Origin: an uncultured Porphyromonadaceae bacterium | GTDB lineage: Bacteria > Bacteroidota > Bacteroidia > Bacteroidales > Muribaculaceae | DNA: 64,000 bases | Direction of reading: 5' to 3' | NCBI GenBank assembly: GCA_947073495.1 | Contig: CAMTMX010000002.1 | Coordinates: 1-64,000 of the forward strand | Shown here: positions 3,927-43,770 of the stretch, piece by piece | Numbering within the stretch: position 1 is the stretch's first letter | Layout of the letters: every line of letters begins with the position of its first letter | Position numbers and translations under genes: made by a program | The notes under the pieces: model-generated | The model's database searches: none | What the model was told of the DNA's origin: nothing | What the model saw: only the letters and a program-made list of their open reading frames with translations

Positions 3927-6900
3927 TTAAAATTCTTTATAGAAGTGAGATCTGTTGGTGAATCCACACCGATAGATTATCTCCTGCACTGTCAGTGAAG
4001 TGGTGAGCAGAAGCTTTGCCGCGTAATTGATGCGATGGTTCTTGATGAAGTCATTAGGCGATACTTCCCCCATCTCTTTAAATTTGCGATAAAGATTACG
4101 GCTGCTCGTCTTTAAGTGCATGGCGATCTGTTCGGCGGAGAGGTCGTTGTCGTCGATGTGGGCGTCGATGAAATCTGTCACTCTTGTCAGGAAGTCCATC
4201 TCTTCTCGGTGCATGAGCTTTCCTCCGTTGAATTCAAATGTGCTCGCAGAAGTGTTGTAATACTCCTTCAGGTGTTCCCTGTTTCCCAACAGCCTGTTCA
4301 CTATAGCCTTAAGATAGCTTACACTGAAGGGCTTGCCGATATATGCGTCCGCACCCGCCTCGATCCCTTTTATCTTCTCATCGTTGCTTGTCTTTGCCGA
4401 CAGAAGCACGAGGGGTATGTGCATGGTGTGCTTGTTCCCCTTCACTTGTCGTGCAAATTCTGTGCCGTCGGTGCCCGGCATCATGATGTCGCTGATAATA
4501 AGGTCTGGGGGTGTCTCCTTGAGGATTGCAAGACCCTCATCGGCGTTTTCTGCGGTGGTTACATTATACTGTGTGAGACTGTCGCGCAGCAATGTGAGAA
4601 TTTCCTTATTGTCATCAACAACAAGAATTTTTGCTCCATCGCCGCTCTTTTTGGCGGAATGCCCATTTGTTTCCGTATCTTTGACGGTGTCCCCACAAGA
4701 GGAATTCTGGTCGTCCATATAATCCGTGGCTTGGGATTCGGTGTGCTCAGTGACAGTGAGTTGTGGGAGCACTACAATAAATTCAGCAAAGTTGCCTACT
4801 TCGCTTTCGATCGATATTCTGCCATGAAGCATGTCGACCATGCTGTGGCAGATAGCCATTCCGAGACCATTCCGGCTTGATATTCCCTTGATGGCATTTT
4901 GTTCCACATTATCAAGCACAGTATAGCGGTTGAAGATTCGGTTCTTGTCTTCCTCTCGGATTCCTTTGCCTGTGTTGTAGACGCTTATACGCAGCCTCCC
5001 GTCGATCTCTTCCGCACCTATTTTAATGGTGCCTCCGGGCTGTGTGTATTTGAAAGCGTTGGAAATAAGATTGTTGAGGATTTTCTTTAGACAACTGTAA
5101 TCAGAATTCCAGATAATGTCGGGCTTTATATCATTGATGTAATGCACGCTGTTTCTTTCCGCCAGTTCGGTAAAGGAGTCGTAGGTCTCGGTACAGAGCT
5201 CGCTGACTCCCACTTTCCTTACTTTAATCGATTTATGTCCTGTTTCAATCCTTCGGAAATCAATCAATTCCTGAATCAGGTTGTTAAGCCTTTCCGCGTT
5301 GACCTGAATCAATCCCACATATCTTTTGATATAATCGTCGGAACCTATGTATTGCATTATGCGTTCGCAGGGACCATATATCAATGTGAGCGGCGTACAG
5401 AACTCATGAGTTATGTCTGTAAAGAATCGAAGTTTCTCTTCATACACTTCTTCTTTGTGTACCTGTTCGAGATGGAGCATCTGCTTTTCCTGTTTTTCTT
5501 TCTGCCGTCGCAGATATGACATCAGAATCATGCCGGCGATCGCGAGGATTATAAGGAGATAGATAAATTTTGCAAAGCCTGTAAGATACCATGGTGCCTT
5601 GACAATAAGCTTTACAAGATACGGATCGCTCTCCAGCCCGGTGGCGCGGTTCACATATTTGACTTTTAGGTTAAATGAACCATGGTTCATTTGGTTGAAC
5701 GTGATGGTGGGGCTTGCGCCATTGCTTATCCATTCCTCTCCGTCGATGGTATAGTAATATGTATAGTTATTTCCATAGATAAAGTCTGGCGCTGCAAATG
5801 TGAGGGAGAAATGGTTTTGGTCGGGCTCAAACACGAGAGTATTGTGGTTGCCTGATGTCTCGAGATGATTATTCAGAGAGACTTCCTCTCCCGAGATTTT
5901 AAGTTTGAGAAGAGAAAGCTTTGGGGCGAAAGGTTCAGCCGGAGCTATATAGTTCTTATGCTTGTTGACAGTCACAATGCCGTTTATGCCGCCAAGGATC
6001 AATGTGTTGCCGATTTCGAAGCTTGCTCCGTCGCTGAATTCTGTCACGTTTATGCCATAATTCTTTCCATAGGTCAGAGATTCATTGCTTTCAGGATTTA
6101 TGCTTATGATGCCGTTGTTGGTTGTAACCCATATTTTGCCATCATTCGCCGATATGATTTCATGAATGGTGTTGTTGGTGAATCCATATTCCGAGCCGGC
6201 AAATCGTTTTTCATTTTCAGGAGTGGATTTTACCACACCGCTACCTGTGCCCAACCAGAAAGTGTCTCCTGTTTTCACGGCATCGAAAACATCTTTGACG
6301 CCGTTTGTGCCGAAATCATTTTTTAGGGGAATGGATACAAGCTTTTCATTCTTGATTTCAAACATCCCTTGTCCACGGTTGCAGAAAAAAAGATTTCCGG
6401 TGTCGTCGGTCACTATTGAGAAAAACTGGTTTGAAGAGAATGCCCCGTTGTCGAGTGTGTATTTCTTGACTTCAGAAAGGCGGGGGTGTTCTCTATCTCC
6501 CGATATTTTTATCTTTGCCACACCCTGTCCGAGAGTACATAGCCAGAGAGTGGAATCATTTGTTTCAACGATTCCATGCACATATTTCATATTCGGGTTA
6601 AAATCTGCCTTGTGGATCTTTCCCTCATTATAGTTATAGTAGTTTAGCCCTTCTTCTGTGGCTATCCATAATATAGGTCTGGTGCTGCCGCTGAATGCAA
6701 ACACGGAATTATGGAGAAGCTCACTGTTGGATGAGGTGAAAAGACTTCCGTTCCCGATTGATGCGGGAGGATACAGCTCGTTGAAATCCGATATTTTTAA
6801 AAGACCGTCGCCTTTGGTGCCGAGCCACAGGTTTTTATATTTATCTACGTGTATCGCTCTGACGGGATGAGAGATCTTATTATTGAAAGCGTTGAAATCG

Positions 6901-7943
6901 AATGATCGGATGCTGTAGCTGTCGTCCCAATAGGTGTAGACTCCTTGGCAGTCGGATCCGATCCAGACCACGTCCTGATCGGGTGATTGTTCGAGACAGA
7001 ACACTCCAACCTGAAGACCGAGGTCTACTGCCTGAAGCTGCCCTGCTTCGTTTATGCCTACCCATAATGCCCCATCGGTGCTGAAAGATATGAAAAAATT
7101 ACCCTGGTGGTCTTTCACCATATCAGAGATTGTCCCCCTTTTTGCAAGTTCATTCGAAATATTAGTGATTTTTTTTGATTTACCACCTGGCATTACTTCA
7201 CAAATGAAACCTTCATTGTCAATGATGAATATTTGGTTGCCCTGGACTTTTGCAAATCTGACAGGGGAATTGTCTACTATTGTTGTTTTGCCGTCAGTGG
7301 TCTTGGCTCCATTTGCCGACGTCTTTAAGCTGCAAGAGTGGATGCCCTTGTCGGAGACAATCCACAATGAGTTGTCTTTGATGGATATTTTTTGGATTTC
7401 TTCAAACGGAATATCGATTTTACCTACCACAGAAAATCCGGAATCACTTTTTTTATCGTGTTGCATCAACTGAGAATTTTCCTCAATGATAAAGAGGATT
7501 CCATTTTCGTCGATACACATAGATTCCTGTCTGTTAAACTGGGGGTGGGTCGATACTATTCTTGCGTTCGTGTCGACTAAATCAAGACCATGGTTGGTAA
7601 GGACCCACATGATCCCATTGCCGCCGTTCACAATTTTTTCAATTATGTTGCCTGAGATTGTTTGACCGGGGAAGATTGAAGTGAAAGGATTTATGGAAGT
7701 GCCGTCTGCAATGTTCACACCATCGCATGTCCCGACCCAAAGAAAGCCGTTGTCATCCCTGCAGAGAGACAGAATCGCACTGTTCGACAGACCGTCTATA
7801 TTTGAAGATTGCCGCATGTTGTAGGAATATGCGGGAAACATTGCAAATGTAAAGATCCACACGAGAAGAAGCCGAATCTTTTGAATGTGGGAGTTCATGA
7901 TTATTGTAGTTTCGTTAGTTTTCAAAAATAAGGTTAACCTCAC
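3927..7943 (-). CDS. Hybrid two-component system regulator (Reg_prop/Y_Y_Y periplasmic sensor, histidine kinase, receiver, AraC HTH); C-terminus apparently truncated by an in-frame TAA
   Basis: Two-bladed propeller repeats, Y_Y_Y domain, TM, 'FFTDITHEFCTPLTLIYGP' H-box, 'NGLGMAICHSMV' HATPase, 'KILVVDDNKEIL...DLIISDIMMPGTDG' receiver, AraC HTH. True start probably the internal MNSHIQ near 7898. Confidence 0.93.
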   Translation of the reverse strand: MRLTLFLKTNETTIIMNSHIQKIRLLLVWIFTFAMFPAYSYNMRQSSNIDGLSNSAILSLCRDDNGFLWVGTCDGVNIADGTSINPFTSIFPGQTISGNIIEKIVNGGNGIMWVLTNHGLDLVDTNARIVSTHPQFNRQESMCIDENGILFIIEENSQLMQHDKKSDSGFSVVGKIDIPFEEIQKISIKDNSLWIVSDKGIHSCSLKTSANGAKTTDGKTTIVDNSPVRFAKVQGNQIFIIDNEGFICEVMPGGKSKKITNISNELAKRGTISDMVKDHQGNFFISFSTDGALWVGINEAGQLQAVDLGLQVGVFCLEQSPDQDVVWIGSDCQGVYTYWDDSYSIRSFDFNAFNNKISHPVRAIHVDKYKNLWLGTKGDGLLKISDFNELYPPASIGNGSLFTSSNSELLHNSVFAFSGSTRPILWIATEEGLNYYNYNEGKIHKADFNPNMKYVHGIVETNDSTLWLCTLGQGVAKIKISGDREHPRLSEVKKYTLDNGAFSSNQFFSIVTDDTGNLFFCNRGQGMFEIKNEKLVSIPLKNDFGTNGVKDVFDAVKTGDTFWLGTGSGVVKSTPENEKRFAGSEYGFTNNTIHEIISANDGKIWVTTNNGIISINPESNESLTYGKNYGINVTEFSDGASFEIGNTLILGGINGIVTVNKHKNYIAPAEPFAPKLSLLKLKISGEEVSLNNHLETSGNHNTLVFEPDQNHFSLTFAAPDFIYGNNYTYYYTIDGEEWISNGASPTITFNQMNHGSFNLKVKYVNRATGLESDPYLVKLIVKAPWYLTGFAKFIYLLIILAIAGMILMSYLRRQKEKQEKQMLHLEQVHKEEVYEEKLRFFTDITHEFCTPLTLIYGPCERIMQYIGSDDYIKRYVGLIQVNAERLNNLIQELIDFRRIETGHKSIKVRKVGVSELCTETYDSFTELAERNSVHYINDIKPDIIWNSDYSCLKKILNNLISNAFKYTQPGGTIKIGAEEIDGRLRISVYNTGKGIREEDKNRIFNRYTVLDNVEQNAIKGISSRNGLGMAICHSMVDMLHGRISIESEVGNFAEFIVVLPQLTVTEHTESQATDYMDDQNSSCGDTVKDTETNGHSAKKSGDGAKILVVDDNKEILTLLRDSLTQYNVTTAENADEGLAILKETPPDLIISDIMMPGTDGTEFARQVKGNKHTMHIPLVLLSAKTSNDEKIKGIEAGADAYIGKPFSVSYLKAIVNRLLGNREHLKEYYNTSASTFEFNGGKLMHREEMDFLTRVTDFIDAHIDDNDLSAEQIAMHLKTSSRNLYRKFKEMGEVSPNDFIKNHRINYAAKLLLTTSLTVQEIIYRCGFTNRSHFYKEF

Positions 7944-24047: not shown

Positions 24048-25067
24048 ATGCCTGATTTATTCATTGATCCTTATAATGGATACTATCAGGGATTGCCTCC
24101 GCCGTTTTTCCGTCCGCTGATTCCGAACGGATGCCGGCGTGCTGAATGGCATGACTACAGAAGCAGGTGCATATATTTGATAACCATAAATAAGAATAAA
24201 GGCATACCCGAGTTCTCACAATTGTCAGGCATCCCTGGTGATCATCAATGGAAACCTAAGGTAGTCTTGTTTCCAATTGGTGAAATAATAGGAAACAAAT
24301 TATCTGATTTAAAAAAGGAGTTTCCATTTATAAGTATCCTGCGTAGATGTATAATGCCTGATCATCTGCATTTTGTTTTGGATGTGAAAGAATCCACACC
24401 AATACATCTTGGAGATATAATTTCATATTTTAAAGGGGAGTGTTCACGCGCAATGAGGTTGATGGCATCGGGTGATTCTAATTCCCCAAAAGAGCCGGAT
24501 TCAATCTTCTCTGAAGGTTACCACGACCGCATTTTGAGGAAAAAGAATCAGCTGGACAGGATGTTGCGATATGTCAGTGACAATCCTGTGAGAAGGCTCG
24601 AAAGGATCGCCAACCGTAGCTTCCATCGTCGGTATAAGATAGTCACGGGAGAAGGCAAATTATATGAGGCTTATGGGAATATTCATTTGTTGGAAGATCC
24701 GGAGATTTCAGCTGTGAAAATAAGCCGGAAGTATTCTGATGAAGAGCTTCGCAAATATAAGATAGACTGGAAGATGACGGTTGAGAATGGAGGGGTATTG
24801 GTGTCTCCGTTTGTCTCTGCTTCAGAGAAGAGAGTCAGGGATTGGGCATGTGATAACGGCGGCAGGTTAATATATATTGAATCTGATGGATTTGGTGAAA
24901 GATACTCTCCCAAGGGGATGCTTCATAAACTCTGCACGGAAGGGAGGTTACTGATTGTCGTTCCTGTGAGGCATACATTGGCAAAAGAAAAATGCAGCCG
25001 GGAAGTATGTCTTGCCATGAATGCCTTGGCGGCAGAGATCGCCTCAGGGCTTATAAAAAAATTGTGA
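24048..25067 (+). mobile_element. REP-associated tyrosine transposase (RAYT, Y1/HUH, IS200-like) with a C-terminal extension of about 100 aa
   Basis: HUH motif in 'CIMPDHLHFVLDV', candidate catalytic Tyr in 'RMLRYVSDNPVRRL'; flanked by REP-like repeats. Confidence 0.85.
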
Positions 25068-25444: not shown

Positions 25445-25861
25445 CTATTGCTGCTTGAAGCGGATTGCGATTTTCTTTCTGAGGAAATGGTCGAAGACAA
25501 GGAGGATGGCTGCAATAGGAGTAAGGATCGCAAGCATCCCGGCGCTTGATGTCCATGAATTTCCAATGCTTTTAACTACTTCTGCCGGCATGACATCAAC
25601 CGTTGCCTTGCTCACGGCAAGTGTGGCGGCTGTGGTCTGCAAGGTTTCATTGAAGATGTCTCCGCAATAATAGACTAATGTGAAGACTGCCACAATTGCT
25701 GCAACAGCATATCCGACTATAGCCCACCACATGTCTCTGCGTTTCCTGCGTCTTTCTTCCACCAGGATGCGGCTCATGACTTCAAATGAAAAGTCGAGAG
25801 GAAGCTGTCTGCTTCCGCCTCTCGATTCAAGAGCCTTATATATAGGTGATTGTCTATTCAT
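25445..25861 (-). CDS. Hypothetical two-TM membrane protein, putative sigma-factor partner
   Basis: Overlaps the end of the sigma factor ORF by several bases; two hydrophobic segments. Confidence 0.6.
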   Translation of the reverse strand: MNRQSPIYKALESRGGSRQLPLDFSFEVMSRILVEERRRKRRDMWWAIVGYAVAAIVAVFTLVYYCGDIFNETLQTTAATLAVSKATVDVMPAEVVKSIGNSWTSSAGMLAILTPIAAILLVFDHFLRKKIAIRFKQQ

Positions 25862-26408
25862 ATTTGTCGGATAATTTGTTGATTAACAAATATAATTTCT
25901 TTCTGGTTCGCATCAGGCGCACTTTGGCTGCCGATTCCCCGATATGCATCATGTCTGCAACTTCTTTAAGCGGCAGACCCTCAAAATAATGTAACGTGAT
26001 CAAGGCTCGTTCATCCACACTGAGGGATTCTATCGCTTCAGGAAGCGCTGCAAGACGGGGATTGTCTGACTCAAGGAAACTGTCTACCCGGGAATCCGAC
26101 AGATTGTTGAGGATTGCTTCGTCGAATGGTATCCCGTCAATGCGCCTGCGGCGTGTGTGGCTTACCGCTTCGTTGTATGCAATCCTGAACAGCCATGTGG
26201 AAAAAGAACTGCGGAAATCAAATTTAGATAGATTCCGGTAGGCTTTCACAAATACGTCTTGGGTTATCTCTTCCGCATCATCCTCAACGCTCACGATTTT
26301 CACAACCAGGGAAAACACCTGTTGAGAATATCGTTCCATCAGAGTGCGGTAGAATCCGGTATCTCCTTCAATTACCCGACGTATTATGTATGCATCATTA
26401 TTTTCCAC
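25854..26408 (-). CDS. RNA polymerase ECF-type sigma factor
   Basis: 'DAEEITQDVFVKAYRNLSKFDFRSSFSTWLFRIAYNEAVSHTRRRR' sigma-70 region 2 and 'LHYFEGLPLKEVADMMHIGESAAKVRLMRTRKKL' region 4. Confidence 0.93.
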   Translation of the reverse strand: MENNDAYIIRRVIEGDTGFYRTLMERYSQQVFSLVVKIVSVEDDAEEITQDVFVKAYRNLSKFDFRSSFSTWLFRIAYNEAVSHTRRRRIDGIPFDEAILNNLSDSRVDSFLESDNPRLAALPEAIESLSVDERALITLHYFEGLPLKEVADMMHIGESAAKVRLMRTRKKLYLLINKLSDKYE

Positions 26409-26994: not shown

Positions 26995-32003
<5,009 letters not shown>

Positions 32004-32061: not shown

Positions 32062-33030
32062 TTAATCAGCTAAAGAGATAGCATTTATTTCTGCAACGTG
32101 AGTAGACCACTTTCCATTGTATACGGCAGTGATTGTAAGCTTAAAAAATCTTGCCTGTTTGAATCCCGGGAAATAAGTCCGGAACTCTTCGGCGCCTCCG
32201 GCAGGCAATCCACTGAATGTCCCTGCGCTCTCCCAGGATTCTCTGTCAAGGCTTGTCTCCATAGTGATTTCTTGAGGCCATCCTTCACCATGATCTCTTG
32301 TAATGAACTGGAACCCTAACATTTTGACCTCTTCCCCCATGTCAACAATTATGTGGTGGGGAGGTTGGTCTTCGCCTCCTTTCCATTGGGTGTGCCAGAA
32401 TGTATTGTTTTTACCATCGAATGCGTGTATCGCATGACCGTTGTCGCTTCCTTCTCCACTTGTCTCTTCAGAAGAGACTTCCACAATTTCCCAGTTGCTT
32501 CTGTCAGCCAAAGGCATATTCCAGACATCTTCCGCACCGCTCAACAGATAATAGATGGTTTGCTGTTTATTGTCGCAATTCCCTCCTGAAACAGTTGAGA
32601 TTGTTATTGGAAGAAGATATGAGTCAAACGGGCGTAGTTTGCCTGAAGCTTCGACATTGAGTGTCAGGTCTTCTGATATGGAAGATCCTGACGGAATCGT
32701 TCCTTCTTTTGTGAGGGTGTAGCAATCGGCGGGAAGCAGGTTATATTTTGTGCCACAGTTTTCGTTATATTCCACCACTTTCTCCGGATTGACTTCGAGG
32801 GTGAACTTGACTTCTGAATCTACGTCCATACCTGATGCCGTGGCATAGTCGCTGCCTGTCACTGCCACATGAAATATCTCTGTTAGTGGCTCGCTGAGAT
32901 TAAAATTTCTGACTTGCAATGTTTTTGCCTCCGGAATATAGACCGGCACGCTATTGTTGTCGTCGCATCCGGTCGCTATTGCCAAGATGGCGAGAGAGGG
33001 GAGTATTAATAAATTTTTATATGGTCTCAT
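32062..33030 (-). CDS. DUF1735 + F5/8 type C domain lipoprotein (SusE/F-position surface glycan-binding protein)
   Basis: Lipobox 'LAIATGCDD'; DUF1735-like region then 'HAFDGKNNTFWHTQWKGGEDQPPHHIIVDMG' discoidin. Confidence 0.8.
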   Translation of the reverse strand: MRPYKNLLILPSLAILAIATGCDDNNSVPVYIPEAKTLQVRNFNLSEPLTEIFHVAVTGSDYATASGMDVDSEVKFTLEVNPEKVVEYNENCGTKYNLLPADCYTLTKEGTIPSGSSISEDLTLNVEASGKLRPFDSYLLPITISTVSGGNCDNKQQTIYYLLSGAEDVWNMPLADRSNWEIVEVSSEETSGEGSDNGHAIHAFDGKNNTFWHTQWKGGEDQPPHHIIVDMGEEVKMLGFQFITRDHGEGWPQEITMETSLDRESWESAGTFSGLPAGGAEEFRTYFPGFKQARFFKLTITAVYNGKWSTHVAEINAISLAD

Positions 33031-33061: not shown

Positions 33062-34807
33062 TCAATAACCCGGATTCTGTCCGTTAACCCAGTTGTCTTC
33101 TCCTCCGTTTTGTTGACGGATCACATGGTTTTTGTCGAGCACATACTGCGGAATGGGTTGATAATACATTCTGGGAAGGAATGTGCGTTGACACACTTCA
33201 TGATAGTTATATTCCAAAACTCCGTCGCCGTCCGTATCAGTGATCATCATTCCTCCTACCGGTCTGTTCATCACACCATCCTCGCCGTCACATATTTTCC
33301 AGCGTATTATGTCCCAATACCGTTTGTCTTCGAAGGCGAGTTCTATCCGTCGGTCGCGGCGTAGAACATCACGGAGCTGGTTAATTGTAATTCCGGATTT
33401 ATAGGTCTGGCGGATCGACGGCATATTGTCTCCTCTTGTCCGGACCATGTCAAGGTAATCGATCGCACCCTCTTTGTCTCCAGACTCAAGAAGAGCCTCC
33501 GCATACATGAGCAAGACGTCGGCATAACGGAAGAAGATATAATTTGCCATGCCGTTGCTCATTTGGAGATTGTCAGCTCCGTTTACAGATTCGTCAAGGG
33601 TTTTTCTTGTATAATAGCCTGTGTTTGTGACATCGCTCGATGAAGAAGTGTCAATTTCATTGGGGCTACCCACTCCCACTCGTGTGATAATCTCTTCACC
33701 TTGCCACATCGATCCGTCATAAAGAATGCTCTGATAGAAACGTTTCTCCCTGTTTTCGTATGGATGTTGCGGATCATAACCGGATGCCGGGTCAGTGATG
33801 GGCAGACCGTTTGACATGCAATAGTCATCTACGAGTTCTTGTGTAGGCTGCATGTTGCCCCAGCTTGACTGAATCCCTTTCACAAACACCGGACCAAACA
33901 GACCTTCCCTTCTGCCTCCGTTTTGTTTTGACATCTGGAAATCATATATCACTTCCGGGTTTCCGTTGGTTTCGGCTGTCCATAGGTCAAGGATAGAAGG
34001 CTGAAGACGGAACAGACCGAGGTCGATTATTTCCTTAAGTGTGGCAGCCGCCTTTTCCCATCTTGATCTGTCGGATGAGGGGTTGCGCAGTTCACTTGCG
34101 TGGAATAGTTCGATCCAGCCTTTTAGGGTCATTGCGGCGGGACGGGTCGCTTTCCCTCCTTCTGACCCTCCTCTCGAGAGAGGCAGGTCGGGAATGATTT
34201 CGCTCAATTCTTTATCCAGAAATTCAAACGTCTCGCGAGCGGTGGCTCTGGGGAAGAATATGTCGCTGTCGACATTGTTGTCGAGCACATCCGTGATGAT
34301 GGGGACTCCGCCATAAGCCATCCATAGATAATGGTAGAACCAGGCTCTCAGGAATCTTGCCTCGGCAATACGTTCGCGTTTGTAATCATCTGAAAAGTTT
34401 GATTCCGTCACTTTGTTTATAAAGAGGTTGCATGATCTGATCCTTTCATACTGTCCTTTGGCGTCGCTGTTGCTTGAGCGTCCCCATTTCCACATGTCCC
34501 AAGGGCCGCACAGCCAGCTTGTGGGGGAGAGAGCGGCGGTGTAGATAGTGGTGCGGGCATTCATCCACTCAGCTCCTACATAAGAATTGTCTGAATACTG
34601 GTCGAAACATTGTGTCTCGTTGTTCAGATGAGGAAACTGATTGTAGATATCGTTGAGGAACATATCGGCATTCTCTTCCGATGCCCATACGGTGGCGTCG
34701 CTAAACCTGTCTTTAGGTTCTATTTCCAGCCAATCCTGGCAAGAAGTGGTAGCCATTGCAATGAAAGTGGCTATGGCTATATTTTTAGTTAAAGATAATA
34801 TTTTCAT
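33062..34807 (-). CDS. SusD/RagB-family nutrient-binding lipoprotein
   Basis: Lipobox 'ATTSCQDWLEIEPKDRF'; 'RYADVLLMYAEALLES', 'RDRRIELAFEDKRYWDIIRWK'. Confidence 0.96.
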   Translation of the reverse strand: MKILSLTKNIAIATFIAMATTSCQDWLEIEPKDRFSDATVWASEENADMFLNDIYNQFPHLNNETQCFDQYSDNSYVGAEWMNARTTIYTAALSPTSWLCGPWDMWKWGRSSNSDAKGQYERIRSCNLFINKVTESNFSDDYKRERIAEARFLRAWFYHYLWMAYGGVPIITDVLDNNVDSDIFFPRATARETFEFLDKELSEIIPDLPLSRGGSEGGKATRPAAMTLKGWIELFHASELRNPSSDRSRWEKAAATLKEIIDLGLFRLQPSILDLWTAETNGNPEVIYDFQMSKQNGGRREGLFGPVFVKGIQSSWGNMQPTQELVDDYCMSNGLPITDPASGYDPQHPYENREKRFYQSILYDGSMWQGEEIITRVGVGSPNEIDTSSSSDVTNTGYYTRKTLDESVNGADNLQMSNGMANYIFFRYADVLLMYAEALLESGDKEGAIDYLDMVRTRGDNMPSIRQTYKSGITINQLRDVLRRDRRIELAFEDKRYWDIIRWKICDGEDGVMNRPVGGMMITDTDGDGVLEYNYHEVCQRTFLPRMYYQPIPQYVLDKNHVIRQQNGGEDNWVNGQNPGY

Positions 34808-34822
34808 TTTGATGGATGTCTG

Positions 34823-37800
34823 TTAGAATGTTATGTTCAAGCCAAAAGCGTAGGTGGCTTGCTGGGTGTAGTATTTTCCATTTGCGGATCCTGCTTCCGG
34901 GTCTACGATCTCTTTCATGAACGGTGTCCATGTCCATAGGTTCTGACCTGACATATATACCCTAAGTCCTGAGATATGGAGGAAATCGAGAGCTTTCTGA
35001 GGGAGTGAATATCCGATTTCTATGCTTTTCAGACGCACATAAGAAGCGTTTCTAACCCACCAGGAAGATGGCTGCCTGTGGTTGTTGACGGTCACTTCGC
35101 TTGTGAGGCGAGGATATCTTGCATCTGTGTTTGCCGGGGTCCAGTGATCTTTGAACTGAAGTTTTGTAGCCGATCCGGAATCGAAGAAAGGCATTACCAG
35201 TGTCTCGCCGAGGGAAATATGGGTTCTTGCAGCCCCCTGGAATAGAGCGTCAAGGTCAAAGTTTTTCCATCTTACGCTGGGGGCGATGCCAAAGATGATT
35301 TCAGGGTTCCAGTTCGACAGACCGATCACAGTCTGGTCGTGTTCGTCGATTTTTCCGTCGGGAACCCCTTCCGGTCCTGATAGGTCTTCATATCTCAGGT
35401 CGCCCGGATAAACCTGTCCCCACGGTTGGGTTGCTATCCCGGCTTTTAGCGAACCGTCTGGATTGAAATCATCGTATGTGAAATATCCGATTGCATGGTA
35501 GCCGAACATTGTGCCGTCGGCACGTCCTGTGCGTCTGCGGTTGGGATTATTATAGGTGGCATCTGTCTCAAATATTTGATCAAGTGTGTTGTGTGCGTAT
35601 GTAAAGGTGCCTCTTGCCCCCACAAACCAGTCTTTATTTATTTGTTTGTTGAAAGTCAGAGTGAGGTCGATACCTTGATTGTGCATCTTGCCGGCATTCA
35701 CCTGCGACAAGGGTATGCCGTATTCTGCTGGTACAAGTGCGTTTGGAGCCATAAGCATGTTAGATCTTTTTTCATAGAAATAGTCTGCCTCAAGTCCCAA
35801 CATTCCGTTCAGTACTGAGAATTCCACACCCAAGTCAAATTTCTTTGCCTTCTCCCATGTGATGTTGGGGTTGCCCTGAAGATTTTCCCACATGCCCATC
35901 ACCGGGACTCCTCCGATATTTCCGGCGGTGCCGAAGCCATAATCGCTCATATATTGATAGGAACTTCCGGCAAGATTTCCTGATTCTCCGTAAGATGCAC
36001 GAAGTTTGAGCTTATCAATCCATTCGTATTTTTCCATGAAATTTTCTTCGCCGATGTTCCATCCCAAAGAGAAGGCTGGGAAGAATCCGAATCGCTTGCC
36101 CGGCGCGAAATAGTAGTGACCGTCATATCTGCCGGACACTTCCGCAAGATAACGGTTGTCGTAATTGTATGCAGCACGGAAGATGTAGCCGATCTGACGC
36201 TCTTTCCATGACGTGCCGCCGTTGCTTATGTCTGCGGGGTCGCTGCTGCCTGCGTTGATTTCGTCTACATTGATGCCGTAGTTGTTGCGTTTGGCATTCA
36301 TGTTCCAGCTGTTGCTCATTCTTGCTTCCACAACTGCCAGTGCGGAGACGTTGTGTGCGCCAAATGAGTTCTTATAATTTAACATGCCTTGGATTGTGGT
36401 GTTGACTCTTTCCGAGTATTCAAGAGACAGATTAGGCTTTTCTGGCCCTTGTTGTCCCTCAGTCCATTCATACGGGTCTTTTGATGCGTCGAGTGAATAG
36501 ACGGGAACGGGTGTCATATAATTTTTCTTTTTCCATCTGTATGGGTCATAGTTGACGACTCCCTGTATACTAAGTCCTTCGATGAAAGGAAGCTGTTGGG
36601 TGATGGAGAGGGAGGTGTTGAGTTGATCTGCCGGCTGATGGTTGTAGCCGCTGTGATATGCTTCTCCGATAAGGGAGTGTCCTACATACTGCCCCCATAA
36701 TCCGTTTGAATAATATATGGCAGAGACAGGCGGGGTGCGGTATGCCTGATACATTATGGTTCCTGCCGACACTCCGGGGAATACTGATTTTTCATGCCAT
36801 CCTCCGAGATTGAGAGTCACATTGGTGTATTTTGTTGCGTCGATGCTTAAATTTGCCTGAAGGTTTGCTCTCTGATAGTTGGTTGAACTCCACATACCTT
36901 CCTGATAGGCATATCCTAACGACACGTAATAACGGAATCTGTCGGAACCTCCGGATAATTGCACATTATGATTTGTCATAACGGAATTGCTTCTGATCAG
37001 GTCTCTGAGACCGTTGCTGTTTGGATAGCGGTCCGGGTCAGCGTCGGGCGCTCCTTCACATGTTTTGCGGAACATCTCGACGTCGTGTGCCGAATATGCA
37101 TAATAATTGGGATAGCCGGCGTTCATCGCGGCTTCATTTTTCATAAGGGCATATTCGTAAGAATTTACCTGGTCGGTAATTCTTGTCGGGTTTTGAAAAC
37201 CCACAAAACCGCTGTAGGAAAGTTTTGGCGCCCCTGTCTTACCTTTCTTTGTGGTCACGAGGATAACGCCGTTTGCGCCTGCCATGCCATAGGGTGCAAC
37301 GGCAGCGGCATCCTTCAATATAGAGATGTCTTCGATCATATTGGGATCGAGTTTGGAGAAATCTCTGGGAACTCCGTCTACAACCACAAGGGGAGATTGG
37401 TTGCCGAGAGTGGCAACACCGCGGATCCGCAGTGACGCCCCGTCACATCCCGGTTCTCCCGATCCTTGTTTCGCTATGACTCCGGCAACACGTCCTGCCA
37501 TGCTGTTGGAGATATTTGTGACCGGCTTCTGTGCGATAGCGTCTGTTTTCATGCTCGACACGGCGGAGGTGGAAGATAGTTTCTTCTGGGTGCCGTAGCC
37601 TACTACGACCACTTCATCCAGCGCTTTCATATCCTCTTTCATTACGATGGAGATGGGAGACTTGCCGTTGTAGTCTATAATGACCGGAATATGACCAATA
37701 AAAGAAAATTCGATCTTGTCTCCTTTGTCTGCCTTGATAGAAAAATTTCCATCTATATCGGTCACTGTAAAAATGTTTTTCCCGACTATCCTCACTGAAA

Positions 37801-37996
37801 CACCGGGAAGGGATTCCCCTGTTTTGTCGGTCACCACGCCGTTGGCTGTGGAGGTGTTTCGATTGTCTCGTTGAAAGGATGTCGTGTCGTTTGCATAAGC
37901 GGGGACACTCACTGTGCTTAAGAAGGCTGCCCCGAGAATCACTGCTTTTGATATGGCAGCAGGAATCGTTCGGGGGACTTTAGGTTTTTGTTTCAT
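34823..37996 (-). CDS. SusC/RagA-family TonB-linked outer membrane protein
   Basis: 'NGVVTDKTGESLPGVSVRIVG', 'DEVVVVGYGTQKKLSSTSAVSSM', 'DISILKDAAAVAPYGMAGANGVILVTTKKG'. Confidence 0.97.
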   Translation of the reverse strand: MKQKPKVPRTIPAAISKAVILGAAFLSTVSVPAYANDTTSFQRDNRNTSTANGVVTDKTGESLPGVSVRIVGKNIFTVTDIDGNFSIKADKGDKIEFSFIGHIPVIIDYNGKSPISIVMKEDMKALDEVVVVGYGTQKKLSSTSAVSSMKTDAIAQKPVTNISNSMAGRVAGVIAKQGSGEPGCDGASLRIRGVATLGNQSPLVVVDGVPRDFSKLDPNMIEDISILKDAAAVAPYGMAGANGVILVTTKKGKTGAPKLSYSGFVGFQNPTRITDQVNSYEYALMKNEAAMNAGYPNYYAYSAHDVEMFRKTCEGAPDADPDRYPNSNGLRDLIRSNSVMTNHNVQLSGGSDRFRYYVSLGYAYQEGMWSSTNYQRANLQANLSIDATKYTNVTLNLGGWHEKSVFPGVSAGTIMYQAYRTPPVSAIYYSNGLWGQYVGHSLIGEAYHSGYNHQPADQLNTSLSITQQLPFIEGLSIQGVVNYDPYRWKKKNYMTPVPVYSLDASKDPYEWTEGQQGPEKPNLSLEYSERVNTTIQGMLNYKNSFGAHNVSALAVVEARMSNSWNMNAKRNNYGINVDEINAGSSDPADISNGGTSWKERQIGYIFRAAYNYDNRYLAEVSGRYDGHYYFAPGKRFGFFPAFSLGWNIGEENFMEKYEWIDKLKLRASYGESGNLAGSSYQYMSDYGFGTAGNIGGVPVMGMWENLQGNPNITWEKAKKFDLGVEFSVLNGMLGLEADYFYEKRSNMLMAPNALVPAEYGIPLSQVNAGKMHNQGIDLTLTFNKQINKDWFVGARGTFTYAHNTLDQIFETDATYNNPNRRRTGRADGTMFGYHAIGYFTYDDFNPDGSLKAGIATQPWGQVYPGDLRYEDLSGPEGVPDGKIDEHDQTVIGLSNWNPEIIFGIAPSVRWKNFDLDALFQGAARTHISLGETLVMPFFDSGSATKLQFKDHWTPANTDARYPRLTSEVTVNNHRQPSSWWVRNASYVRLKSIEIGYSLPQKALDFLHISGLRVYMSGQNLWTWTPFMKEIVDPEAGSANGKYYTQQATYAFGLNITF

Positions 37997-38086: not shown

Positions 38087-38094
38087 CAAAATTA
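38087..38094 (-). promoter_or_regulatory. Candidate -7 box (TAATTTTG on minus strand) for the susC operon
   Basis: Matches Bacteroidetes TAnnTTTG, about 90 nt upstream of the susC start. Confidence 0.45.
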
Positions 38095-38247
38095 TGTCTG
38101 GAGGATTAATTCCCCGGTTAGTTACAGATTAATATCCCTTTTGTTAACCCAAGTTTTTTATTAATCCGGTATTGCCCGGTCCAGGAGCATTCTTCATATG
38201 TTATGAACAGTATGCTCCAATTGAGTTTTTCAAAGGATTAATAAATA

Positions 38248-38465
38248 AAAAATGGGGTTAATTTTAAAATTAACCCCATTTTTAACCTGTTGAATAATAC
38301 CTGATAATGTAATTTTGCAGGTGTATAATCGTTATTCAGTTTTTTCAAGTTTTTTGATAAAATGCCGTCAGGAATTATAAAAAGGTAAGGATCATAGGTA
38401 AAAAGGATTTTAGGTTGTTTATTTCATTATTTTTTTAGTGAATTATATAATTTTTGACAAAGATA
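38248..38465 (-). ncRNA. Candidate small RNA or attenuated leader between the Kelch-SARP regulator and susC
   Basis: Minus-strand -7 box TATCTTTG (38458-38465) and, ~200 nt downstream, a perfect 36-nt palindrome (38248-38283) followed by a U-rich run; no substantial ORF between. Confidence 0.45.
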
Positions 38466-38509: not shown

Positions 38510-38547
38510 AAGAAGTATGGCAATCCGTGAGGATTGCCATACTTCTT
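38510..38547 (-). terminator. Terminator downstream of the Kelch-SARP regulator
   Basis: Perfect 17-bp stem, 4-nt loop: AAGAAGTATGGCAATCC-GTGA-GGATTGCCATACTTCTT. Confidence 0.85.
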
Positions 38548-38587: not shown

Positions 38588-41224
38588 TTATAAATCTTCC
38601 ATGCTTCTGGGGAAATCTTCACCCATCATATTGCGATATTCTTTTGTGAAAGAATTATATAATGCCATAGCCTTGTCGTGTCGGCCGGTAGCCCGGTAAG
38701 CCTTGATGCCGTATGTCAGAGCATGCTCTGACAGAGGGTCGATCCTTAACAAGGAATTGCTCAGGCGTCTTGCTGTGTCATACTTGCCGAGTCGATAATA
38801 ATCAGTGATCTTTTCTGTGAGATATTCGATCATGTAAGTCTCCATTTCCTGACGATAATAATCGAATATGGAATCTTCAGTGTCTGCTAAAAATTTACCC
38901 TTTATTATTATGGTATTAAGTTCGGCAGATTTTTCATCATCAAGCGGATGGTTTTGTAATGACGATGTGATTCTGTAGACTTGCAGATAGTCGCAATAAC
39001 ATGAGTCGGAAACATCTATACGGAACAACCCTTGTTCGTAAACGAGGCTGATCCCTTCTATTTCTGTAAGTACCTTGCGAAGCTTGTTAATAGTGACGTT
39101 TCGCAGGTTTTTGACCTTGTCCGGCTCTTTATCAGCCCAAAACACGGAGTTAAGATCATTAGAAGTCACACCTTTTTTACTGATTGTGTTGAGCAGAATA
39201 TAAAGAAATACCAATTTTAATTTGCGGCTGAACATGTATGTGATGTCTCTTCCGGATGAGTCGAGTGTCGATAACGGTCCGAACAAAGAAATACAGTTTT
39301 TTTCAGGATACATAAAACGATAGGTAGATGTAGTGTCATTCTGAGATAATTCGCTCTCAGAAGAATCGGATCCTTCAGGAACAGACACTTCCTTAGTCCC
39401 GTTGTTTTCAGGTAATTCAATAGCCTGTTCGGAAAATGTTGCCTGATTCGGCTCTATATTTTTTGTCTTTGTCGGCTTTCGTTGTCGTCTTATTATCACT
39501 ACAGCAAATAATGTCAGAGCAGCGACACATCCCCCCGCGATATACCACAGTGTCGACCACCGTTTTAAACCGTTGCTTTCAGAAAAAGAAAGGAGTTGGC
39601 TTGATGATACAGGAGGGGTTGATATGGAATAGACAGATGTGGTTGTCTCTCCATATTTCTCAAATTCCTGCACCACACAATAGATCTGTTCGAAAGCGGG
39701 ATTATCGTATAATGCCACATTTGTGGCTATTTCTTCAGATACGATCGGTACTGAATCCCCCACTGCTGTCGCACTGCCGTCGTTTATGTCTATGCGGAAA
39801 AGTTGTAGCGAGGAATGAGGTTGATATTCAGGATACATCATTGCATAGAAATGCTTCCTGTCAGGATCCTGTAATAAAGTCCTTGCCGGCACCCGGTCGT
39901 TTTCCGGCGCCGGTTGCTCCCAAAGTTTTTTTACTTTCTTTGAATTCAGGTCAATCAGATATAAATCATAATAATAGATAGTGCCCAGGTCTTGTTTCCC
40001 TTCAAGATTCCCTTTCCCTCCGTAAATATAGATCGAATCTTCCGATTCCGTCAACATCATTGAGGTGAAGAAACGTGGCTGGATTTTGTCTCCCGATAGA
40101 GGAATCGTATCCCAAAGATTGTTGTTGAAATTGAATCTCACCAATTTGTCGGAATATGTACGATTGCCATAACCTCCGAAAAGTATAAGAGAATTATCTT
40201 TTTTACGATACACATGAGCGTGATGATGCCACACCGCCTTCGGTTCGGAAACGTTGAGCATTTTCCACTCTCCGGTCTCCGGATTTATTTTTGCAAATAA
40301 AGCGTCATGATATATCTCGTATGGCATAATTGCGCCCGATTCGGCGTCGATCAGGTTCATACCGAGTTTGGTGGGGAGACTGTCTCCTTTTAACGGGAGC
40401 ATGGTCAACCCTTTTGAGAGGATATTGTATGTCTTTATAGAATCGGCGTTATATGAATGGAATTTTTGTCTTGTCTTATCGAATGCAAATCCTGTCGGGG
40501 TGGAAGAGTATACCTTCCAGATAGGATTCCATGAGAAAGAGCGGTTTATAAGCCATTTAGGGTTTTTGATATTTCCGATAACATTTCTGTTGGAGTCATG
40601 CACATTTTCACCGACACATTCACTAAGAGGAATATAGGTTGTAGTATTGTCTGTTATGATTCGAAGGTTACGTATGGAGAATGATGCACATTCCACAATA
40701 TTGCGGCTCATACCGAAATAAAGTTGCGGAAATAATTGAGTGTCTTTTAGCTCGGGCATCGGTATGGTGGATTTGTGTGAACCGATAGCGATGTCGATAA
40801 CTCCGGATAGTGTGTTGATTCTGATTGAAACGGGGAGATATTTTTCTTGGACTTCCTCTTTTGTGAAGGATGTGGAAAAGATAGTCTTTTCTCCGTTTTT
40901 TGCAAAAATAAAAACGGCGTTCCTGTTTTCTACATTGTAATTGAATGTAAGGGTGAAAGCTTCATTCCCTTTAGTGTTGCGAAGATAAAGTATATTTCCC
41001 GGACTGTTGAGATTATGGTTCCTGACTTCAAGATCCACACCATATTTTACTACCTTTTTAGTCTCTTCATCTTCCCCCGGGATAGAAAGCGATGATCTTT
41101 CGGCGATGGTTTTTTCATTTCCATGAAATTGCAGTCCTTGCGGATATACGCAAAGTAAATTCTGGAAAAGAATAAGATATAATATGATAGATAATCTCTT
41201 CATGTATGATGTCAGGTTTATCAA
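38588..41224 (-). CDS. Membrane-spanning regulator: extracytoplasmic LamG-like/Kelch sensor, one TM helix, cytoplasmic SARP-type winged helix + BTAD/TPR
   Basis: Signal peptide from MKRLSII; kelch-like 'LILFGGYGNRTYSDKLVRFNFNNNLWDTIPLSG' repeats; TM 'WYIAGGCVAALTLFAVVIIRRQRK'; SARP-like 'SRKLKLVFLYILLNTISKKGVTSNDLNSVFWADKEPDKVKNLRNVTINKLRKVLTEI'; BTAD-like 'YRLGKYDTARRLSNSLLRIDPLSEHALTYGIKAYRATGRHDKAMALYNSFTKEYRNMMG'. Confidence 0.82.
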   Translation of the reverse strand: MINLTSYMKRLSIILYLILFQNLLCVYPQGLQFHGNEKTIAERSSLSIPGEDEETKKVVKYGVDLEVRNHNLNSPGNILYLRNTKGNEAFTLTFNYNVENRNAVFIFAKNGEKTIFSTSFTKEEVQEKYLPVSIRINTLSGVIDIAIGSHKSTIPMPELKDTQLFPQLYFGMSRNIVECASFSIRNLRIITDNTTTYIPLSECVGENVHDSNRNVIGNIKNPKWLINRSFSWNPIWKVYSSTPTGFAFDKTRQKFHSYNADSIKTYNILSKGLTMLPLKGDSLPTKLGMNLIDAESGAIMPYEIYHDALFAKINPETGEWKMLNVSEPKAVWHHHAHVYRKKDNSLILFGGYGNRTYSDKLVRFNFNNNLWDTIPLSGDKIQPRFFTSMMLTESEDSIYIYGGKGNLEGKQDLGTIYYYDLYLIDLNSKKVKKLWEQPAPENDRVPARTLLQDPDRKHFYAMMYPEYQPHSSLQLFRIDINDGSATAVGDSVPIVSEEIATNVALYDNPAFEQIYCVVQEFEKYGETTTSVYSISTPPVSSSQLLSFSESNGLKRWSTLWYIAGGCVAALTLFAVVIIRRQRKPTKTKNIEPNQATFSEQAIELPENNGTKEVSVPEGSDSSESELSQNDTTSTYRFMYPEKNCISLFGPLSTLDSSGRDITYMFSRKLKLVFLYILLNTISKKGVTSNDLNSVFWADKEPDKVKNLRNVTINKLRKVLTEIEGISLVYEQGLFRIDVSDSCYCDYLQVYRITSSLQNHPLDDEKSAELNTIIIKGKFLADTEDSIFDYYRQEMETYMIEYLTEKITDYYRLGKYDTARRLSNSLLRIDPLSEHALTYGIKAYRATGRHDKAMALYNSFTKEYRNMMGEDFPRSMEDL

Positions 41225-41280: not shown

Positions 41281-42174
41281 TTATTGGTATAGACGTACAT
41301 AGTCTATTTCATAGCGGAGAGGCATTGCCGTGGGGTCAATTAATCCACCGTTGTCGCCTCCCAAAGCGAGATTAAGCAATATATAGTGGGGCTGTCGCAT
41401 AGGGTTGAATCCATCCGGGTTGACAGTGTCTTTGAGGTCGGTATGATTGATAAGGAGATCGTCAAGATAAATGTTTAATGCATTTTCATCCCAGTCCATT
41501 CTCCATGTGTGGAATTTTGAAGCCCAGTCCGGATCTTCCTGAAGGAATTTGGAGAAAGGGACAGTCTGTGTATTCCATTTTGCATTAAATCTTTGGGATG
41601 TGCCCCATGCGGCGTTGGCGAGAATGTGGGGCACACCATCGATCCTGTAATATTCCATCACATCGATTTCTCCATTCGACGGCCATTCCTTATCCGTGCC
41701 TAAAGTCCAGATGGCGGGCCATGCACCGGGTCCGACAGGTATTCTTGCTCTTACTTCAAGAGTGCCATATTTAAATTCCTTTTTGCCTCGTGTGTTAACA
41801 GACGATGAGGTATATTCTATATTTTTGCGTGATTCCCTCCATTCTCCCGATCCCTCTTTATATAGCGGGTTAGGTTTGGTTTCCTGTTTACATTCGATCA
41901 CAAGAAGTCCGTCTTTACAGTAGGCGTTCTTATCCTGATACCATTGATCTTCATGGTTTCTTGCGAATCCTTCCTCAAAATTCCAGAAGTTTGCATCGAT
42001 AGGACCATCCACATTGAACTCGTCGCTCCATATCAGTTTCTTTCCGGACATCGACTTTTCGGTAGACCTTTTCTTTCCTGTCTGTTGGGCACAAAGGTCA
42101 GATGTTGTACAGAAAAGGGATATTGTGCCCGATATTATCAGAGAGATGAGGTATGTGAAATTATAGATTTTCAT
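41281..42174 (-). CDS. Glycoside hydrolase family 16
   Basis: 'KLIWSDEFNVDGPIDANFWNFEEGFARNHEDQWYQDKNAY', catalytic 'GEIDVMEYY', 'PHYILLNLALGG'. Confidence 0.94.
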   Translation of the reverse strand: MKIYNFTYLISLIISGTISLFCTTSDLCAQQTGKKRSTEKSMSGKKLIWSDEFNVDGPIDANFWNFEEGFARNHEDQWYQDKNAYCKDGLLVIECKQETKPNPLYKEGSGEWRESRKNIEYTSSSVNTRGKKEFKYGTLEVRARIPVGPGAWPAIWTLGTDKEWPSNGEIDVMEYYRIDGVPHILANAAWGTSQRFNAKWNTQTVPFSKFLQEDPDWASKFHTWRMDWDENALNIYLDDLLINHTDLKDTVNPDGFNPMRQPHYILLNLALGGDNGGLIDPTAMPLRYEIDYVRLYQ

Positions 42175-42216: not shown

Positions 42217-43770
42217 TCATTTCTCTATGATCCAGTCGGAAATGGTTCTTGCTTTGGTAGAGAAATTGACGCCTATCTTGATTATTTCCTTTCCGTCTGT
42301 TTTGAAGGGGAGAGCATATTCTTTTGAATTGATCTGACCGATCGCCTCCTGTGCAGACCTGTCGAGTTTGATCTCTATAATATAATAGTATCTGTCGGTG
42401 GAGATAAACAGATCGATCCTTCCGTTTGATGTGCGGTATTCTGTCCGGACATTAATCCCCAGCAGGAGCATCAACATGTAGAGTGCGTTATGAAGATTCT
42501 GTTCACATTCCATATTCATATCATATGGAACAGATGCAAACAAAGATTTGAGTCTTGTCATGAACGCATCCGCCTCCCCTGCAAGCAGATCCTTTACAAA
42601 ACTTTGAACAACGAATCTCGCATTTAAATTGTGTAGGTTGACATATGTCGGTAATAGGTATAGCAACAGCCCTTGTTTAACCTCCTGATTAGGAAGCCCG
42701 AGAGTATAAAGGTCATCTTCAAAACCTTTTATTGTCAGATACCCGGTCTGGTAAAGCAACGCTACCGGACGCGGAATGTCAAGGTCGAGACCTCTGAGTT
42801 CTTCAATGTCGCAGACGGTGTTAAACAGAGATTCAAGGTCTGTATCAAACCGGTTGAGCTGTTGCATCAGCAAAGTTGCCTGTCCGGAATGCATCCAATA
42901 ATTACGAAACTCTTCCTTATTCATTACGTTTACAATTGAATAAGGATTGTAGATGTCATCGCCGTTTGCGGAAAACCTGTATCCGTCATAACGTTCTTTC
43001 AGTTCCCGTTTGATTTCCAGAGAAGACATTCCGTATTTATTTGCAAGAATGTTTATTCCTGTCTTAAAATCTGAATAAAGTTCCTCTTCAGAGATTCCAC
43101 AGATAGAGCTGTATTGATCATCGAAGGATATATCATCGATATTGTTCAGCCCTGAGAATACCGAGAGGTGAGCGAACCGGCTGACACCTGTGAGGAAAAC
43201 CATCCTGATATATTCCGCGCTGCTCTTGAAGTTCGAGTAAAGTGCTGCAAGCTCGTCGCGGTAAAATTCAAACATCCTGTTGTCGTGGAGGTTGCTGACC
43301 AATGGTTTGTCGTATTCGTCAACAAGTATGACGACCCGTTCGCCTGTTTTCTTATATGCCGCTTCAATTATTTCCTTGAACCTTATGGAGATATTGTTAG
43401 ACATTGGAGTTACGTCATACTCTTTCTCCCACCCCCTCAACATACTTTCCATCACCTCTTTCAGATCGGTGTCGCGTTGGTATTTCTCTATATTGAGGTC
43501 GATATATAGAACTGGTCTGGGTCTCCAGTCCCAGTCCATAGAGTCGGCATAAAGCCCCTTGAAGAGTTCACGCCGTCCCTGGAAAAAACATTTTAGGGTC
43601 GAGAGGAAAAGACTTTTCCCGAAGCGTCGCGGACGTCCGAGGAAATAGTACTGACCACCGGATCGGGTGATTTTTTCTATAAACTGAGTCTTGTCGACGT
43701 AGAGGCAACCGCGTTCTCGCATCACCTCAAACGATTGCTCTCCGACACCATATATGACAGTTTTCTCCAT
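42217..43770 (-). CDS. AAA-ATPase_like / PD-(D/E)XK nuclease-superfamily protein (DUF1703-type)
   Basis: 'VDKTQFIEKITRSGGQYYFLGRPRRFGKSLFLSTLKCFF' and C-terminal 'GRIDLFISTDRYYYIIEIKLDRSAQEAIGQI'. Confidence 0.93.
   Translation of the reverse strand: MEKTVIYGVGEQSFEVMRERGCLYVDKTQFIEKITRSGGQYYFLGRPRRFGKSLFLSTLKCFFQGRRELFKGLYADSMDWDWRPRPVLYIDLNIEKYQRDTDLKEVMESMLRGWEKEYDVTPMSNNISIRFKEIIEAAYKKTGERVVILVDEYDKPLVSNLHDNRMFEFYRDELAALYSNFKSSAEYIRMVFLTGVSRFAHLSVFSGLNNIDDISFDDQYSSICGISEEELYSDFKTGINILANKYGMSSLEIKRELKERYDGYRFSANGDDIYNPYSIVNVMNKEEFRNYWMHSGQATLLMQQLNRFDTDLESLFNTVCDIEELRGLDLDIPRPVALLYQTGYLTIKGFEDDLYTLGLPNQEVKQGLLLYLLPTYVNLHNLNARFVVQSFVKDLLAGEADAFMTRLKSLFASVPYDMNMECEQNLHNALYMLMLLLGINVRTEYRTSNGRIDLFISTDRYYYIIEIKLDRSAQEAIGQINSKEYALPFKTDGKEIIKIGVNFSTKARTISDWIIEK

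Follow-up and report, generated by a model that had tools for sequence, protein, structure and literature searches.

A membrane-anchored Kelch-SARP protein as a predicted one-component regulator of an adjacent Bacteroidota PUL

SARPs are familiar as the soluble proteins by which actinobacteria switch antibiotic synthesis, and the known control of PULs lies with SusR, HTCS and ECF/anti-sigma systems. One gene in the window (the whole 64,000-nucleotide stretch of DNA analysed here, from an uncultured Muribaculaceae bacterium) raises the question of what a protein that joins a Kelch propeller to a SARP module across the membrane does beside a PUL. Very probably, this Kelch-SARP protein acts on the adjacent susCD-BT3987N-GH29-GH2 PUL as a transcription activator that is anchored in the membrane and works as a one-component system.

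Architecture and fold of the Kelch-SARP protein

The gene lies within an ORF at 38588-41224(-), whose first in-frame start, TTG at 41224, would give 878 aa. Both the family alignment and the signal peptide point to the ATG at 41203, which is the preferred start and yields a protein of 871 aa (38588-41203, minus strand). A hairpin with 17-nt arms and a 4-nt loop follows the gene on its 3' side (38510-38547, minus strand) and is likely to be its terminator.

The full-length AlphaFold2 model (pLDDT 85.5) shows a signal helix, a β-sandwich, a propeller, a membrane helix, a linker and, at residues 637-871, a module made of a wHTH and further helices; all features are encoded on the minus strand. 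The signal peptide (residues 1-22; 41138-41203) has a hydrophobic N-terminus and ends in PQG, as is common to the relatives. It precedes a periplasmic, LamG-like β-sandwich (residues 24-213; 40565-41134), recognised from AlphaFold2 strands with a pLDDT of mostly about 90. The periplasmic Kelch β-propeller, the presumed sensor (residues 226-528; 39620-40528), is called by Pfam (E 5e-17), and the PDB matches of the full-length model in Foldseek are Kelch propellers (best E 3e-12). A single membrane helix (residues 545-574; 39482-39571) is followed by RRQRK on the cytoplasmic side and by a disordered linker of 57 residues (575-631; 39311-39481; pLDDT < 50). The cytoplasmic part closes with an OmpR/SARP-type winged helix (residues 637-731; 39011-39295), assigned from the AlphaFold2 model and its fold match, and a BTAD/TPR domain (residues 738-871; 38591-38992), assigned by Pfam above the cut-off (E 7e-7) and by fold. 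The original prediction of a single ORF with a signal peptide, a Kelch region, one TM segment and a SARP/BTAD C-terminus is thus borne out by Pfam, AlphaFold2 and Foldseek. It had also described the ectodomain as LamG/Kelch, of which the Kelch half stands; Pfam calls neither LamG nor a winged helix in the window protein, and the LamG half survives as the LamG-like β-sandwich of the model. Among the relatives, Laminin_G_2 is matched weakly in 1 of 20 (E 0.004). Pfam finds in the protein no histidine kinase, receiver or AraC-type HTH, the components of an HTCS, and no sigma or anti-sigma domain, as an ECF sigma/anti-sigma system would have.

The C-terminal module, modelled separately by AlphaFold2 with 70 sequences, reaches a pLDDT of 94.6. 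Its six PDB matches at E<=1e-3 in Foldseek are all SARPs, namely EmbR of M. tuberculosis (2fez/2ff4) and AfsR of S. coelicolor (8hvr/8k60), among them AfsR in complex with the afsS promoter. The SARP fold is supported because these are the only PDB matches at that threshold, and the structure prediction against SARP/BTAD folds that had been proposed as a check is accordingly positive. The TM-scores of 0.56-0.63, around 0.6, indicate a common fold in which the orientation of the domains is altered. In sequence searches BTAD alone is recognised: PF03704 scores 30.2 bits against a cut-off of 22.1 in the window protein and reaches E<=0.05 in 18 of 70 relatives, while Trans_reg_C, the winged helix, is weak in 4 of 70 (best E 0.011) and absent from the window protein. 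A sequence profile of the module searched against the PDB returns TPR-type proteins only and does not reach the SARP chains. The SARP reading of the module is supported by its predicted fold, and less strongly by sequence.

In that fold the winged helix is directly followed by BTAD, the order by which SARPs are recognised, and the original prediction of a winged helix and BTAD at the C-terminus agrees with the AlphaFold2 model. SARP membership holds for the output module by fold, by BTAD and by the operator geometry described below. The whole protein departs from known SARPs: it is transmembrane and carries the module at its C-terminus, and so lacks the customary, non-defining trait of a soluble protein with an N-terminal SARP domain. 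Domain annotation would yield Kelch and TPR, and might thus point to a non-regulatory surface enzyme of Kelch/galactose-oxidase-like type that ends in a TPR tail. The SARP fold of the C-terminal module and an operator whose occurrence tracks the gene make such an enzyme extremely unlikely.

The linker bears on the main rival to a membrane-bound activator. The protein could be a membrane-held precursor that proteases cut near the membrane on sensing, so that the freed, soluble SARP module binds the same operator. The 57 disordered residues between membrane helix and module could be cut, or serve as a tether, and the operator evidence fits both cases equally well. However, neither a cleavage motif nor a protease dedicated to it was identified, linker length is variable in the family alignment, and a long tether would also bring a membrane-bound protein to DNA. 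Release is on these grounds rather unlikely, and the membrane-bound activator is the reading followed below.

The adjacent PUL and the distribution of the family

The genes downstream of the regulator form a PUL on the same strand. It opens with a SusC/RagA transporter, the predicted first target gene (34823-37996, minus strand; TIGR04056, E 2e-298), and continues with SusD (33062-34807, minus strand; PF07980), a surface protein with a BT_3987-like N domain and an F5/8 type C domain (32062-33030, minus strand; domain search), a GH29 α-L-fucosidase family protein (30546-32003, minus strand; PF01120) and a β-galactosidase-type GH2 enzyme with a ricin-type lectin domain (26995-30549, minus strand; domain search). 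Just downstream of the GH2 gene lies an ECF sigma gene (25854-26408) with no evident anti-sigma gene alongside. On the other side of the regulator, a GH16 gene (41281-42174, minus strand) is located 77 bp upstream of the preferred start; no operator is seen at this gene, and it is possible that the two are cotranscribed in one operon. An AAA-ATPase_like/PDDEXK_9 gene (42217-43770) sits between GH16 and GH92.

The window also includes a second PUL (2212-23040), with GH125, HTCS, GtaA-like, GH2, CarboxypepD_reg, GH76, SusC, SusD and DUF3823 genes, whose make-up is similar to that of the mannan PUL found with the Kelch-SARP gene in most relatives. A gene with a Y1_Tnp (IS200-like transposase) domain (24048-25067) lies between the two PULs.

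A single scan of named Bacteroidota genomes, seeded with a set of closer sequences, recovers 149 relatives of the protein. The best 80 of the 149, retained as loci, span Bacteroides, Parabacteroides, Dysgonomonas, Alistipes, Sphingobacterium and Cytophagales. In a sample of 393 genomes of the order, 34 have a match, in a few cases a partial one; the module is present in 18 of 297 genomes across the phylum, where some matches are weak; the bacterium's own genome holds a single copy of the gene. A more distant subfamily shares the same architecture, which is that of a conserved family and no chance fusion. The C-terminal module also occurs on other sensors, LamG-type in four loci (L038, L040, L042, L044) and short β domains in two (L009, L043). 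From these sequences, the joining of membrane helix and SARP module to non-Kelch sensors suggests a wider membrane-SARP family. In Bacteroides rodentium (L048, 9941-12589) and B. faecichinchillae (L081, 9965-12552) the gene is split in two ORFs, by inactivation or sequencing error.

Within the best 80 of the 149 loci, SusC or SusD is found in the flanks of 67, compared with 4 of 20 control regions evenly spaced along one genome that carries a Kelch-SARP gene. The survey of the fusion across Bacteroidota that the original prediction called for therefore yields a phylum-wide family tied to PULs. At most of these 80 loci an α-mannan-type PUL lies alongside the gene or is divergent from it; this PUL contains a CarboxypepD_reg protein, GH76, SusC, SusD, DUF3823, GH92, a GtaA-like protein and GH125. 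In the window's clade (L045, L046, L047, L049) the neighbours are parts of the BT3987N-SusCD-GH29-GH2 PUL, which is complete in L045, L047 and L049; in L046 BT3987N alone is within reach. Since this clade, which has an SH-aLRT support of 99, is nested among mannan-PUL relatives, the PUL partner appears to have changed.

The predicted tandem TAAYC operator

A DNA alignment of the relatives displays tandem GGGTTA blocks upstream of the Kelch-SARP gene. The spacing of GGTTA pairs is mostly 11 or 12 bp, or sums to 22/23. A pair at 11/12 bp is present in 32 of the 72 regions upstream of the gene, where shuffled sequences give 0.14 on average, and at the best 80 of the 149 loci their density is 449 per Mb in intergenic DNA against 2.7 per Mb in coding DNA. 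They are located mostly 65-230 bp before a start codon and share one orientation in 61 of 71 cases. Written toward the gene, the predicted operator is TAAYC-N6-TAAYC-N7-TAAYC, 8-9 bp upstream of a -7 element, TAnnTTTG, which is the Bacteroidota -7 consensus (PMC7366714). This triple site is matched 61 times in intergenic DNA, at 47 of these 80 loci, and never in the 1.49 Mb that is coding, counts in which the close Sphingobacterium loci are not independent. The spacing order is 11 then 12 in 47 of the 61. Measured from the last repeat, the TTTG of the -7 box has an offset of 19 or 20 in 26 of 52 sites, and near variants stand there in others.

Besides Sphingobacterium, the triple site is found in Dysgonomonas, Proteiniphilum, Bacteroides, Maribellus, Draconibacterium, Paludibacter and Alistipes. 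Even a double TAAYC at 11/12 spacing is missing at 18 of the best 80 loci, most Cytophagales included, and L046, the nearest relative outside the species, has neither a triple nor a double site, nor SusCD within its flank. In B. rodentium (L048) and IMSAGC_004 (L047), where GH29-GH2 form a separate operon, the triple site precedes GH29, which argues that the operator stays with the PUL after rearrangement. Some loci have two operators (L107, at 12615 and 12797; L120; L122), one before each PUL operon flanking the regulator gene.

In the window, the predicted operator is TAATC-N6-TAACC-N7-TAATCC (38103-38131, minus strand), whose three direct repeats, spaced by 11 and then 12 bp, lie in the susC promoter. 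The last repeat is 8 bp from a -7 element, TAATTTTG (38087-38094, minus strand; consensus TAnnTTTG). Operator and -7 box together read TAATCtgtaacTAACCggggaatTAATCCtccagacaTAATTTTG (38087-38131, minus strand), and the -7 box lies 90 bp before the SusC ATG. Published SARP sites are direct repeats 11 or 22 bp apart, the 3' repeat being 8 bp from the -10 (PMC10936776); the repeats described here share this geometry, with a period of 11/12 bp and a distance to the -7 element of 8 bp in the window and 8-9 bp in relatives. A GGTTA pair at about 38270-38290 was also considered and was dropped for the site at 38103-38131, as it overlaps a perfect palindrome and is oriented opposite to the sites of relatives. 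This 36-bp palindrome (AAAAATGGGGTTAATTTT/AAAATTAACCCCATTTTT, 38248-38283) lies between the regulator and susC, and may be a terminator or an inverted second binding site.

By pattern search, the triple repeat TAAYC-N6/7-TAAYC-N6/7-TAAYC has one match in the bacterium's own 3.53-Mb genome, at the susC promoter beside the Kelch-SARP gene. Since the reversed pattern matches there once too, by chance, the informative point is where the operator lies and not how often it occurs. When the TTTG is included, the pattern has 8 matches in 7 of 393 genomes, and its reversed control 1. Five of the 8 are near a Kelch-SARP gene: four lie within 300 bp of it, and in the window the distance to the gene's stop is 456 bp, with nothing intervening. 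This pattern is matched in 5 of the 29 genomes that carry the module, the 29 being counted from the list of family matches in the 393 genomes, against 2 of the 364 that lack it (Fisher p 3e-5). One full match (G428:C6:31934-31978; TAACC triple plus TTTG) does not adjoin any of the Kelch-SARP genes of its genome, and is a possible distant member of a regulon.

OmpR-family proteins generally bind direct repeats with a period of about 11 bp. The TAAYC site might therefore be bound by another regulator, either an OmpR-family response regulator or the product of the HTCS (3927-7943, confirmed) or ECF sigma (25854-26408) genes that the window contains, the Kelch-SARP gene being a passenger of the PUL. 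Such an arrangement is quite improbable, since the site co-occurs with the Kelch-SARP gene in the genome comparison and adjoins that gene itself, and since neighbouring HTCS or ECF genes are inconstant among the best 80 loci. The second PUL of the window (2212-23040), which has the HTCS, contains no triple TAAYC site.

The position of the operator alone cannot separate activation from repression, and a PUL repressor that its ligand releases from DNA would fit it too. At the susC promoter, however, a clear -33 TTTG is not seen and the -30 region, immediately before the -7 element, is taken up by the repeats, which is the arrangement described for SARP activators (PMC10936776). Repression is thus quite improbable, and the Kelch-SARP protein is best read as an activator.

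Proposed mechanism and relation to known systems

In the proposed mechanism, the periplasmic β-sandwich and Kelch propeller would sense a ligand, for which an oligosaccharide freed from the PUL's glycan is the most likely candidate, and pass the signal through the one membrane helix to the cytoplasmic SARP module of winged helix and BTAD. Copies of this module, probably two or three, presumably brought together by dimerisation or oligomerisation, would bind the tandem TAAYC repeats at 38103-38131. They would then recruit RNA polymerase to a weak susC promoter, which has the -7 element at 38087-38094 and no evident -33 element, and would thus activate directly from the membrane, without release of the module.

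On balance, it seems rather probable that Bacteroidota possess a further class of PUL sensor-regulators, membrane-anchored SARPs that activate from the membrane via a conserved triple TAAYC operator. In this class the sensor would be exchangeable (Kelch, LamG or short β domains), and a move from the ancestral α-mannan PUL to a fucose/galactose PUL would have kept the operator design. As the matching DNA site recurs next to the gene across the phylum, these proteins seem to form a class of nutrient sensor that has not been described before. No description of Kelch, BTAD or SARP regulators in Bacteroidetes or PULs was found in the open-access literature searched, which is no proof of novelty. 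A transmembrane SARP with a nutrient sensor links SARP and PUL regulation, and gives PULs for α-mannan-type and fucosylated glycans in soil and gut Bacteroidota a regulator and a predicted operator. The DNA motif allows PUL regulons to be predicted, and the protein offers a one-protein test case for how a membrane-bound activator reaches its promoter.

Like SusR-type and HTCS regulators of PULs, the Kelch-SARP protein combines a periplasmic sensor, a membrane crossing, a cytoplasmic DNA-binding domain and an adjacent susCD pair. HTCS differ in signalling through a histidine kinase, a receiver and an AraC-type HTH, in place of which the Kelch-SARP protein has a SARP output. CadC and ToxR are likewise one-component, membrane-anchored proteins with an OmpR-type winged helix, but place it N-terminally and the periplasmic domain C-terminally, an order that is reversed in the Kelch-SARP protein, where BTAD is added. 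The module itself keeps the order of AfsR from S. coelicolor and EmbR from M. tuberculosis, winged helix then BTAD. Described SARPs, however, are soluble and actinobacterial with an N-terminal DNA-binding domain, whereas here the module is C-terminal, cytoplasmic and tied to a periplasmic sensor by a membrane helix. Their operators resemble that of the window in that direct repeats follow each other at one helical turn and stand 8-9 bp away from the downstream element of the promoter (PMC10936776); the Kelch-SARP operator differs in its TAAYC repeats and in its setting against a Bacteroidota -7 box.
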